From the NCBI GenBank assembly GCA_030267965.1, contig BRYA01000571.1, positions 19,307 through 83,306 of the forward strand: a DNA stretch of 64,000 nt. Reading direction: 5' to 3'. The stretch's first letter is position 1, and every line of letters starts with the position of its first letter. Positions 49,838 to 57,137 of the stretch are shown here, one piece after another. The notes under the pieces were generated by a model. The model was not told the origin of the DNA, made no database searches, and saw only the letters and a program-made list of their open reading frames with translations. A program made the translations under genes and the position numbers. Source of the stretch: Triparma columacea (taxonomy: Eukaryota; Sar; Bolidophyceae; Parmales; Triparmaceae).

Positions 49838-51362
49838 CTACAATAAACTCTCCGCCTCCATATCGGCGTCCTTGACGTTCTTGGTGGTTTTGAGAATGTC
49901 AACTAGCTTGAACTGGCAGAGAGCCGCCCCGAAGAGCATGACTGAGCAACAGAAGAATGCAGATGTCATCTCGATTTTGCTCAGAAGCACTCCGAGAACG
50001 ATGATGTTAAGAGGTATTCTGAATATATTGTAGATGGCACTCCTTTGGCTCTCTGGGACGACCATTCCCTTGACAGTCCCAATCGCTGGGAAGTACAAGC
50101 CGACACACGCCTCGAAGACAAGGAATCCAATAAAGATCAGTGTGTAGTTGCTTGTCAGGACAGGGATGAAGAGGCTCGCGCTTGCAACGCAAAACGTGTA
50201 CTTTGACAACTCCTCAACTGGGGTGCTCTTGGTTAAGATGGAGAATAGCGTGCTCCCGGCCATGCAGGCCACCATGAAGGTTGCGAATATGAGTCCAAAT
50301 GGTAACGTTTCGCCCTCGGCTGCGGCAGGATTGAGAGCTGGAGTCCACATGAAAACGAAGGTGAACATGCTGTGTTGGAAATCAGGGGAGAGGGGGTTGG
50401 GGGACCAGAACGCACGTAACATGCAACATTTCCAGCGAATTAGTTGCGATGGTGCCCCCCTTGGCTCACCTTCCTTCAAATAAACTTGATATTAGACCGC
50501 ACAACAAGACAGCCTGGTTTTCCACAATTGTCTTGAATCCCTTCTTCAGTACCTTGGCGGATCCCTCGATGCCGGAATCCGCGTCATCTCCCCGACTGCC
50601 GTAGTTTTCACCCCAATTCTTGTTTATGTAGAGGCCTCCCGCTATAAGGACAAGAATAGCAACGTCAAAGGGGGCGCAAAACCCACCGTTCATCAGGCTC
50701 CCATCGTTTGTATTAACTTCGCCCCCTGAAACCACGTGAAGGTCGCTCACGCCGGCCGCTGCGTTGGCAATGAGTCCGGCGAGGATGGCTACAACACTAT
50801 TGCCAAAGATTGCAATTGCGAAAGTGTCAGATAGCCACGACTGGTCAAAAGTTCTTGCGTTGTGTTCATTGATCATCCAGCTATCGAAGACGCTGTAAAG
50901 CAGGGAAGTTGAGACACCACCTAGAAGGCGTCCAAGCATCAGCCAGTTGTAGGAATTCATGTGCTTGGTTAGGCAAGATAATATGTAAGACGCGATGTAA
51001 ACCAGACAGAACTTCTTTCGTCCGAACCTGTCAGCGAAGCTTCCGAGGAAGGTACCAAAAACCATACTGCTCCCAAACCCCGCGACGAATAGGACGGCAA
51101 TGTCGTGCTGGTCAAAGCCGTAGCTGTCATAAAGGGCGTACACATAAGGTCCTTGAAGCCAGTCTCCAGCCATTACACAGAAGTAAACAATCAAATACGT
51201 CTTCTGAAACCTTTTGAATTCCACACTGTCGCTAGCAGATTTACCACTGTCGTCTTCCCCTTCACTGCTCGTCCATTTCTTGTGGAGCAAAACCCCAGTG
51301 ATGACTATCGCGACCAAGAAGAAGAAAAGGAAGGCCGGAGCCTCTGATTTAGAGTCAGTCAT
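49838..51362 (-). CDS. MFSD5-like major facilitator (molybdate-anion transporter family)
   Basis: Two exons on the minus strand, 51362-50470 and 50369-49838, join through AG-C and give about 474 residues. ATG 51362 is chosen over an upstream in-frame ATG (51455) because it starts right before the first membrane helix. The MFSD5/MOT2 landmarks are present: YLIVYFCVMAGDWLQGPYVY in helix 2, GFGSSMVFGTFLGSFADRFGRKK, LGRLLGGVSTSLLYSVFDSWMI, FEGSMFTFVFMWTPAL across the splice site, and PLNIIVLGVLLSKI near the end. MFSD5 relatives transport molybdate in Chlamydomonas; that substrate is inferred from the family. It is divergent from the U-box gene, with 332 bases between starts. Confidence 0.88.
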
Positions 51363-51694
51363 AGTCTTAAGGTGGTGTGAGGAGCTAAAGGGAGTTAGAA
51401 CTTCGATCGCATCGAGTGGTTGTATTTTTTTAAAGAGATCCCAAATGTCGTTCAAGAGTTTTGAACAAACAGTAGTATAGCAGCTTTCCGTTACTAAATT
51501 GGAGCAGCTGTCGGACGATCACAGAGATGGTGTCCAGATACGTCGTATCGAACTCACAATAATCGACTGGAAAGTGCTTGTCAAGCAAACAATTTGTTTT
51601 TTTGTCCATCGAGAGGAAACTGGAGCCTGAGTTTCGGAAATTGGAAATGCCAGTCCGAAGCCAGGAAGGATTCGACCAAAACATTTGAAGGTTT
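51363..51694. promoter_or_regulatory. Divergent promoter, MFSD5-like / U-box-VWA-Vint genes
   Basis: 332 bases separate the two opposed starts. The stretch is AT-rich and contains no open frame with family features. Both core promoters should lie here. Confidence 0.45.
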
Positions 51695-54243
51695 ATGGAT
51701 TCTTTCCGCTCTTGTCCACTAACCAAAGAAAGGTTCCAAGGTAAGCTTATTGAAGTGCTGGTCCTGCGCCTCCTTTTTGTGGGATTATTCTGCGCCCCGG
51801 AAAAAATAAATGTGATTCAAGACTCATCGAATCTTGGGAAAAAATATTACAGTTCACCAGCGTCGATCACCGCTGCCTCGCCACCGACCCCCATCCCGTC
51901 TATATAGTCGAATCTCACGCCGTACCCGTACCCCACCCCCCCCTCAAATCCGTCTATCTAAGATCCTGTTATAGATCCCGAAGGTAACACTTACGAGCGA
52001 TCCGCTATTGAGGAGTGGTTGAAAGACCATTCTACTTCCCCCATCACGCGGTCTCCCTTGACTCTGGAGCATTTGGTTCCAAATCGCGCCTTGTTAGACG
52101 CGATTTCTTCTTCATCTGTCCATCTCCCACCCCCTCCTCCTCTCGTGGACGAATGGGAGAGTGTGAGTGTACCTCACGGAAGTCCAGGTCTCTCCGCTAC
52201 TATTGTGGGTTCCAACTCCATCTGCTTGGAGAGGAAGACTCTACTTTCCGTTGACGTCGTCGCTCCGGTTTCGACCAAAAGGACGCCTACTCACCTAGTG
52301 CTTGTTATCGACGTGAGCGGGTCGATGGGGTGTTCTGCTGATGTTCAAGGTGCTTCAGAGAGTACCGGTTTGTCAGTCTTGGACATTACGAAGCACGCAG
52401 CCAAGACGGCTATCAAGCTTCTCTCCCCTCTCGATACCTTGTCAGTCGTCAAGTTCGACAGCAATGCAAGTGTTGTTTTCGATGGCATGCCGATGAGCGT
52501 TTTGAATATGAAGCAGGCTATCAAAGTGGTTGAGGAACTTCACCCTGGGAGCTCCACAAACTTGTGGGACGGCTTGCTCAAGGGTATGCAACAGGTTAAG
52601 AAATCAAACGTCGCCAACAAGTTCTCTTCTGTGTTCCTGTTAACCGACGGAGTTCCAAACGTTGAGCCCCCTCGTGGGCACATCCCGATGATGCAAAAGT
52701 TTATGGACGAAAACCCCAACCTCAAGTTCAGCGTCAATACTTTTGGCTTCGGCTACAACCTTATGTCATCTCTTTTGCTCGAAATCGCTCTTAACGGCGG
52801 TGGCAACTACTCGTTCATTCCTGACGCGTCCTTTGTTGGCACCGTGTTTGTTCACTCGGTCAGCAACGAGCTATGCAAGGTGAGTCGTAATGGACAAGCG
52901 AGGCGTCTTTCGACAAAGCGTCATAATCTCACCCATTCACCACGGCGCCGCCTCAATTCTTGCAACACTCGCCTCAGTTTGGGGTATCTGCCGTTCTGAA
53001 AGTCGAGACGTCGAATTCCTCGGGTGTAGTTCTCGGCGCAAGCGGTAAGAAGCAGCTGAAAACACTCCAAACGTCGTGGGGCTATTTGATCGATGTCGGA
53101 TCCCTCTCTTTCGACCAAACGAGGTCCTTCATCATGACTTTCGACGGGCCTGTCTCGGTTGACTCCGTCACACTCTCGTACCATGATCTGAATGATGGAG
53201 TGGGCCAGACGAGTGAATTGGTCACAACACCTTCAATTTCCCCGTCAACAAATCCTTCAATCAACCATGAAATTCTTCGATTGCTTTCAGTCGATGCCAT
53301 CACCGACGGACTCAGCAAGTACGATGGCAAGCGCATGCGGAATCTCAGTGAGGCCCAAAGCGCCATCGCGTCCGTCGTTTCTACGATCAAATCAAGCGAT
53401 TCGCCCGCCTCTGTCGCTCTCACCATTGATATGACGGGACAGATAACCGAGGCTTTCAGCAAGTCAGATTACGCGGATAAGTGGGGGGTCCATTATTTAC
53501 CGTCCATCTGCCGTGCTCACCTTCTCCAAGTCTGCACTAACTTCAAGGATCCCGGTCTTCAGAAGTACGCCGAGGGGACCCTGTTCGAGAAACTGAGAAA
53601 CGAGGGGGATGATATTTTCATGGCTATGCCCGCTCCCAAGCCCTCTCACGGTGGGGAAAGGATGAACAGTGCCAACTTCTCTAGGACCTACTACAACGCC
53701 TCCAATGGATGCTTCCACGGCAATTGCGACGTTACTTTGGAGGGCGGTATGTCTATCAAGATGCGCGATCTGAAAAAGGGCGACCGTGTTGTGGGCACGG
53801 GAGGGGCCATTGTTGAGGTTCTATGCATCATGAAAACCCTGGTGGGGGGCTCTAAGTGCGATATGGTCACTCTGAGTGGAGGATTGTGCGCGACCCCTTA
53901 CCACCCAATCTTCTACGAAGGAAAGTGGCAGTTTCCAAGGGACATCACGACCCCCGCTGAGACGGCCTGTGATGCCGTTTACTCTTTCGTAATCAAAGGT
54001 GGTACAGGAATCCTAGTCAACGGGATTGAGGGAATCGCCCTTGGGCACAATATCGTCGACGATCCCATCGCTTCTCACCCTTACTTCGGCACTGACAATA
54101 TTGTCGAGGACTTGAAGAAGCTGAGGTCTCTTTGGGAGCACGGGCTGGTTGTATTCGACTACGGGTGTATGAGGAGGGAGGAGGACAACAACACCGAAAC
54201 ACTTATCGTCGGCTTCCACATGGAGCGTCTAGTTTTGGCGTAA
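51695..54243 (+). CDS. U-box + VWA + Vwaint/Vint (Hint) domain protein
   Basis: Three exons, 51695-51740, 51963-52879 and 52978-54243, with phases 1 and 0, give about 742 residues. Exon 1 ([15 protein letters not shown]) completes a U-box with exon 2: [39 protein letters not shown] (about residues 7-66). U-boxes recruit E2 enzymes for ubiquitin transfer. A von Willebrand A domain follows (about 120-300) with an intact MIDAS: DVSGS near residue 132, and LLTDG later. A beta-rich Vwaint-like linker leads to a C-terminal Vint/Hint domain. This starts at the candidate nucleophile in [10 protein letters not shown] (Cys about 566), has block-B-type ATPYHPIF (His about 630) and ends with the LGHN and SHPYFGT signatures. 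Hint domains can self-cleave. Activity here is inferred, as is any link between cleavage and ubiquitination. Confidence 0.85.
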
Positions 54244-54292: not shown

Positions 54293-54310
54293 GGGGGGGG
54301 GGGGGGGGGG
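54293..54310 (+). repeat. 18-base G homopolymer
   Basis: An uninterrupted run of 18 G lies 50 bases after the stop of the U-box gene. It is the longest homopolymer in the window and may be a quadruplex or a polymorphic tract in the convergent 3' region. Confidence 0.85.
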
Positions 54311-56366: not shown

Positions 56367-56690
56367 TATTTAATTTTTCCACTCCGACTCCCCTTGGGCA
56401 CCCTATAATTAATTTTTATCGATTTTTATACCATCTTAGGTGTGTGTGTGTGTGTTGATTCTGGCTCTGTAATCCAATCCCTAATCTTTATGCGGGTTTA
56501 ACGGGCCTATGCAATTTTTCCGGCGTGCTAGGTTTTTGATTGAATGAGAAGATGCATTCCTTCTTCATCGTCGAACGTGATTCCGTTGAAGTGCCAATTT
56601 AATACAGTTCTACGTCTCTTCTTGCGCAATCAAACTCGTGAAATCGTTCTAACATCTTTCAAAACGCACGATATCGACGATCACAGAAAA
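56367..56690. other. Divergent gap with a GT dinucleotide run
   Basis: These 324 bases lie between the plastid protein start and the NDP kinase ATG. A run of alternating GT, about eight units, sits at 56440-56455. An in-frame ATG at 56544 could extend the NDP kinase. Otherwise I see only promoter-like AT-rich sequence. Confidence 0.5.
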
Positions 56691-57137
56691 ATGGAGCGCA
56701 CTTACATCATGATTAAGCCTGACGGAGTTCAGAGGGGTCTCGTTGGTGAGATCATCAAGCGCTTTGAGCAGAAGGGCTACAAGTTGGTCGCTATGAAGCT
56801 CTGGTCTCCTCCTCGTGAGTTCATGGAGAAGCACTACGCCGACCTCTCCAGCAAGGGATTCTTCGCTGGCTTGATCAACTACATGACCAGCGGACCTGTG
56901 GTGTCCATGGTCTGGGAGGGCGCCAACGTTGTCCTCGAGGGTAGGAAGATGCTCGGAGCCACCAAGCCTTCAGACAGTGCCATGGGCACCATCCGCGGAG
57001 ACTTCTGCATTGAAGTTGGGAGGAACATCTGCCATGGCTCTGACTCTGTTGAGTCTGCCAACGCCGAGATTGCTCTTTGGTTCCCTGATGGTGTTTCTGA
57101 GTGGGACTCCTGCGAGTCTGCATGGCTTTACGAGTAA
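56691..57137 (+). CDS. NDK: Nucleoside diphosphate kinase
   Basis: Transfers gamma-phosphate between nucleoside di- and triphosphates through a phospho-histidine. From ATG 56691 the protein is 148 residues, the classical group I length. It shows [20 protein letters not shown], the KPN-loop region, [30 protein letters not shown] with the active-site His, and the terminal WLYE. The frame is open upstream to ATG 56544, which would add 49 mostly basic and hydroxylated residues ([21 protein letters not shown]); this could be a mitochondrial presequence or an accidental UTR frame. The canonical start is preferred because family proteins begin at this Met. It converges with the KH gene, with 117 bases between the stops. 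Confidence 0.95.

Follow-up and report, generated by a model that had tools for sequence, protein, structure and literature searches.

A U-box-VWA-Vwaint-Vint protein of Triparma columacea with an apparently intact Hint active site and no aligned counterpart of the Hedgehog sterol-transfer aspartate

The stretch of Triparma columacea DNA analysed here, referred to as the window (64,000 nucleotides of contig BRYA01000571.1, assembly GCA_030267965.1, positions 19,307 to 83,306, renumbered from 1), contains on its plus strand a gene for a 742-residue protein that unites a U-box, a VWA domain, a Vwaint region and a Vint domain of the Hint fold in a single chain. All four domains exceed their Pfam cut-offs, and the Hint active site looks intact as judged from the conservation of its residues. 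With moderate confidence, we propose that the protein is an intracellular ubiquitin ligase (E3) built on an ArnB/Sec23-like core, which would undergo a slow-to-moderate, perhaps regulated self-cleavage before Cys566 in which no sterol takes part.

Gene structure and domain composition

The gene comprises three exons (51695–51740, 51963–52879 and 52978–54243); the two introns between them, both of the GT-AG type, measure 222 and 98 bases. Exon 1 supplies the start codon, 15 codons plus one base and the CPLT start of the U-box, and ends at a GT donor (AAG/GTAAGC); reading through intron 1 (51741..51962) leads to a stop. Exon 2, whose acceptor after position 51962 reads CTAAG/ATCC, encodes the remaining U-box, a proline-rich linker and the VWA domain, and exon 3, behind intron 2 (52880..52977, GTGAGT..CCTCAG), encodes the rest of a β-sandwich, a helical Vwaint region, a disordered linker, the Vint domain and the stop codon. 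The acceptor of exon 2 was set by the higher U-box score and by P0001, a 98% identical homologue of 741 residues that reads across both junctions. Since the coding sequence of P0001 and the 320 intron bases of the window together amount to about 2546 bases, more than the 2278 bases of its contig, P0001 is spliced or intron-free, which supports the splicing model. It differs from the window protein in 11 alignment columns, leaving Cys566, Thr627 and His630 unaffected, and its exon 1 is identical save for S6C. An alternative acceptor 12 bases downstream (exon 2 from 51975, 738 residues) was rejected; it yields a U-box score of 39.8 bits versus 56.9 bits with 51963 and is contradicted by P0001. 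The three-exon gene is confirmed and its parts look intact. A preliminary description of the window had postulated the 46-base first exon as the start of the U-box, the union of U-box, VWA and Vint/Hint domains in one protein, an intact VWA metal site, and Cys566 and His630 as candidate catalytic residues; these observations are all borne out.

The U-box (51710..52108, residues 6–64, interrupted by intron 1; Pfam 2.4e-15) scores 56.9 bits against a curated cut-off of 21.4. With E values up to 0.01 allowed, it has 29 counterparts among solved chains, the bacterial effector LubX coming first (6.5e-13) and plant PUB12 (2.7e-12) and CHIP also being among them. Conservation was assessed in an alignment of the window protein with 120 listed homologues (n = 121), which were examined from 1447 matches of a search whose query, based on the 51975 acceptor, was four U-box residues short. 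Position 9, Trp34 and Pro42 of the U-box, which we take to be the E2-facing residues (E2, ubiquitin-conjugating enzyme), are conserved in 87/88 (Leu or Ile), 104/109 and 113/115 non-gap sequences, respectively. In the VWA domain (52295..52825, residues 127–303; VWA_2 5.5e-9 over residues 127–245), the metal ion-dependent adhesion site is invariant, with Asp132, Ser134 and Ser136 found in 120 of 120 and Thr214 and Asp244 in 121 of 121 non-gap sequences. Vwaint (53413..53607, residues 467–531; 2.2e-21) and Vint (53707..54177, residues 565–721; 3.9e-37) follow, giving the order VWA, Vwaint, Vint within one chain.

Structure models were built from exon 3 of the window gene together with 49 of the 120 homologues, and from 49 of the 120 proteins examined in a second set, which was obtained by a Vint-only search with 152 matches. 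Model residues 243–415, corresponding to residues 564–736 of the protein, match the solved Tetrahymena Vint (8r2c) and show the same fold. The C-terminal tail beyond the Hint core (54049..54240, residues 679–742), in which His688, Gly692 and Gly710 are conserved, lies mostly within this match and is possibly a regulatory or adduct-recognition region. As the U-box begins at residue 6, there is no room for a signal peptide, judged by inspection only and not by a signal-peptide program.

The Hint active site

The predicted nucleophile is Cys566 (53710..53712), which aligns with the catalytic cysteine of Hedgehog and would place the cut between Gly565 and Cys566. Both the motif A cysteine and the motif B sequence TxxH, here TPYH (53893..53904, with Thr627 and His630, the latter at 53902–53904), are present. 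Cysteine and histidine are each found in 121 of 121 aligned proteins and threonine in 120 of 121; none of the 120 listed homologues has lost the cysteine or the histidine.

The residue preceding the cysteine was sorted into rate classes taken from one archaeal intein (PMC11842431). In the first set it is Pro (63), Gly (38), Val (14), Ser (2), Ala, Ile, Leu or Phe (one each), so that the moderate class accounts for 40 and the slow class for 81 of the 121, with no fast residue. In the second set, counted by hand and excluding the 70 of 120 sequences not reaching the cysteine (26 do not reach the histidine and were likewise excluded from counts of it), it is Gly (31), Pro (12), Ser (3), Val (2), Thr (1) or Phe (1), which puts 32 of the 50 in the moderate class, 18 in the slow class and none in the fast class. 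The dominance of glycine there indicates that the slow class is not family-wide, and Gly565 of the window protein itself belongs to the moderate class. Slow residues, read from the alignment, can mean either regulated cleavage or little cleavage; according to the available part of PMC11842431, the archaeal intein was cleaved nearly fully within 20 h whatever residue preceded the cysteine.

A deviation from the family is found at window positions 54004–54033. Thr664 and Gly673 occur in the window protein and in P0001–P0005, two of which are from Triparma, while the family norm is His664 (100/121) and Cys673 (99/121); the two replacements thus form a paired change within one lineage. The Tetrahymena Vint structure 8r2c has a block-F-like histidine (in GHTMNI) where the window protein has threonine, and its crystallised chain carries alanine at the cysteine position. 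A 2024 FEBS Letters paper on Tetrahymena Vint reportedly describes ligand-regulated cleavage and an adduct recognition region.

Comparison with Hedgehog

Hedgehog attaches cholesterol to its own N-terminal fragment with the assistance of Asp303. In a profile alignment, this residue (Asp46) lies opposite Lys607 of the window protein, in a column occupied by Lys (94), Arg (11), Glu (7), Val (5), Gln (2), Ala (1) and His (1) and by aspartate in none of the 121 proteins. Aspartate is also absent from column 608 (111 Thr, 3 Ala, 3 Ser, 2 Met, 1 His, 1 Ile) and, in the second set, from column 607 of all 71 sequences that extend over it. In Hedgehog, as reported in the available part of PMC9163320, the D303A variant fails to complete cholesteroylation, mutants at position 303 including D303R are cleaved more efficiently with dithiothreitol, and a D303H variant is active, indicating that the aspartate is replaceable. 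Because the active site is kept without the aspartate, we predict a thiol- or water-driven cleavage without sterol transfer; the retained site and the missing sterol base make this prediction a sharp one. From the alignments, a Hedgehog-like sterol conjugate appears less likely.

The Hedgehog C-terminal (Hog) domain (1at0, 6tyy) thus shares the Hint fold, the cysteine and the TxxH motif with the window protein, but differs by its Asp303/Asp46 in place of Lys607 and by a secreted N-terminus instead of a U-box; for the window protein, there is no known lipid acceptor.

The protein family and related systems

The coupling of these domains, which the preliminary description held to be not established, was already described in 2008. 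The available part of that paper (PMC2362128) names the VWA-Vint family (Pfam PF14623/PF14624), with four members carrying a U-box, reports retention of motifs A and B and no sign of a signal peptide, relates the family to the plant RING-VWA protein At5g60710 and considers Metazoa to be devoid of it. The window gene, with the same VWA-Vwaint-Vint order, is a further member from a new species; its product represents a good test case rather than a new kind of system. Literature searches, which miss most subscription journals, retrieved no functional work on proteins that join a U-box to a Vint.

A similar VWA platform occurs in the WAV3 E3 ligases with their ArnB/Sec23-24 core, which presumably carry a RING instead of a U-box. 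At5g60710, which is related to WAV3, has a RING and no Vint, in contrast to the U-box and Vint of the window protein (PMC2362128, available part). Weak sequence similarity to the window Vint (E 0.007–0.03) is also found for the BIL2 domain of the Tetrahymena BUBL1 locus (6tmm, 6y75). BUBL genes encode ubiquitin-like repeats and no E3.

All 120 listed homologues bear Vwaint and Vint tags, and 107 of them, counted by hand, a Pfam U-box tag. In the alignment, both halves of the U-box are covered in 87 proteins, the second half only in 22, the first only in 1 and neither in 11. Among these 11, P0005 starts inside the VWA domain, and the other ten (P0043, P0048, P0058, P0070, P0072, P0073, P0080, P0085, P0094 and P0114) start with a methionine between the U-box and VWA positions and keep the Hint cysteine and histidine. 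Their frames suggest that a subgroup without U-box likely exists, missed first exons being the other possibility. The nearest named relatives among the listed matches are Triparma proteins with 52–53% identity. In P0092 (847 residues), a ubiquitin domain is fused ahead of the U-box-VWA-Vwaint-Vint array.

The family is partly shown to be spread over eukaryotes. Bdelloid rotifer entries (Didymodactylos, Rotaria) include four Vint proteins, P0090, P0110, P0140 and P0144, two of them with a U-box tag, which differs from the exclusion of Metazoa in 2008. Three IMG/VR contigs encode members as well (L002:5080-7149, L003:5947-7821, L004:1-1857), all with cysteine and TxxH and two with a U-box; the L004 frame runs past the contig start, so that its N-terminus lies beyond the contig. 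L002 additionally encodes a ribonucleotide reductase small subunit and a PIF1 helicase, a gene content consistent with, though no proof of, a giant virus, and the L004 neighbour is an asparagine synthetase. The three contigs are likely to represent a giant-virus branch of the family. For prokaryotic relatives, a pattern scan of genome contigs matched six stretches and confirmed none, a weak negative given the limited reach of the pattern in divergence.

Mechanistic proposal and alternatives

In the proposed scenario, the U-box would recruit an E2, and binding of a substrate or partner would fall to an ArnB/Sec23-24-like platform made up of the VWA domain, the β-sandwich and the helical Vwaint region and resembling that of WAV3 E3 ligases. 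In the Vint domain, Thr627 and His630 might assist Cys566 in turning the Gly565-Cys566 bond into a thioester by an N-S acyl shift. This thioester would be resolved at a slow to moderate rate by water, a small thiol or an amine and not by a sterol, perhaps only upon ligand binding by the tail, to give a 61-kDa ligase core and a 19-kDa Vint fragment. If true, many protists would possess a ubiquitin ligase that is controlled irreversibly by its own, built-in proteolysis.

Several points weigh against this scenario. Its support is computational, drawn from sequences and models. The proline found before the cysteine in 63 of the 121 proteins falls into the slow class, as defined in the single intein tested, and the window protein is devoid of the His664 that 100 of the 121 possess, such that the reaction may be altered in this lineage. 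The match of Lys607 to Asp303 depends on the profile alignment, and Hedgehog with histidine for Asp303 is active (PMC9163320, available part), the absent aspartate alone being therefore no bar to conjugation.

Alternatively, the Vint domain might stay uncleaved despite its retained Hint fold and active site, and might sense a ligand or autoinhibit the ligase. That a residue of the slow class (Pro, Val, Ser, Ala or Ile) precedes the cysteine in 81 of 121 proteins and a fast one in none, and that the tail beyond the Hint core is conserved, argues for such a role; however, a purely structural function leaves the joint retention of cysteine, threonine and histidine unexplained, and the residue is of the moderate class in 32 of 50 proteins of the second set. 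We consider this alternative unlikely, if worth keeping in view.

A wider version of the self-cleavage proposal is rather unlikely: that in a family of U-box ligases widespread in eukaryotes and also encoded on giant-virus-like contigs, the Hint domain of each protein detaches the E2-recruiting core with an activated C-terminus, which is taken by a non-sterol nucleophile (a small thiol, an amine or a protein) and thereby switches activity or location.

The preliminary description had envisaged Hedgehog-like processing, in which the freed U-box/VWA fragment receives a lipid or another adduct at its C-terminus. The shared fold, cysteine and TxxH motif sustain this idea, the conserved tail sits where Hedgehog carries its sterol-recognition region, and the activity of the D303H variant (PMC9163320, available part) indicates some tolerance at this position. 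It is weakened for sterols by the lack of aspartate in columns 607 and 608 and by a U-box starting too early, on inspection, for a signal peptide. Such processing appears distinctly unlikely; the preliminary interpretation as a whole is partly supported.

A thioester relay in the manner of HECT or RBR ligases, with the Hint cysteine taking ubiquitin from the E2, is highly improbable. An invariant cysteine and an E2-binding module do share one chain and P0092 provides a natural ubiquitin fusion, but the cysteine is located in the standard Hint site and is kept by the ten homologues whose frames begin between U-box and VWA.

The chance that the U-box does not belong to the protein and reflects an artefact of the gene model is practically negligible. 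Exon 1 is merely 46 bases long, residue 7 is gapped in 33 of 121 aligned proteins, and P0002, the next closest relative (77%) and one of the proteins without a Pfam U-box tag, is predicted to start within the U-box, without its first half, which counts against exon 1. However, P0002 lies on a 4243-base contig where a first exon was possibly overlooked, P0001 on its spliced or intron-free contig has exon 1 and the U-box, the tag is present on most listed homologues, and the U-box score rises to 56.9 bits with exon 1 and the correct acceptor.

Intein-like splicing at LGHN (His678-Asn679) was rejected and is unlikely from the sequences, as column 679 holds the terminal asparagine in only 42 of 121 proteins (Gly in 55), the fold alignment endpoints place the intein ends earlier, near Ala675, and no +1 Cys, Ser or Thr was seen after either candidate end (column 676: 115 Leu, 2 Phe, 2 Met, 1 Trp in 120 non-gap sequences; column 680: 59 Phe, 26 Ile, 25 Leu, 3 Val, 3 Tyr, the other 5 of 121 unlisted).

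Genomic setting

In searches of the whole genome (37.9 Mb, 789 contigs), Vint and Vwaint were each matched once, and Hint gave a single weak match, which is to the same gene. When P0001 served as the query against the assembly, no second copy turned up; besides the window gene there were 13 weaker matches, none above 40 bits, of which twelve fall in the U-box part and one in the VWA domain. Of five flanking frames scanned, two have Pfam matches, an MFS_5 transporter gene on the minus strand (50466-51455) and a nucleoside diphosphate kinase gene on the plus strand (56544-57137); the other three gave none, and no link to the ubiquitin system was seen among the neighbours. A run of 18 G is located at 54293-54310, about 50 bases past the stop codon and likely in the 3' untranslated region.
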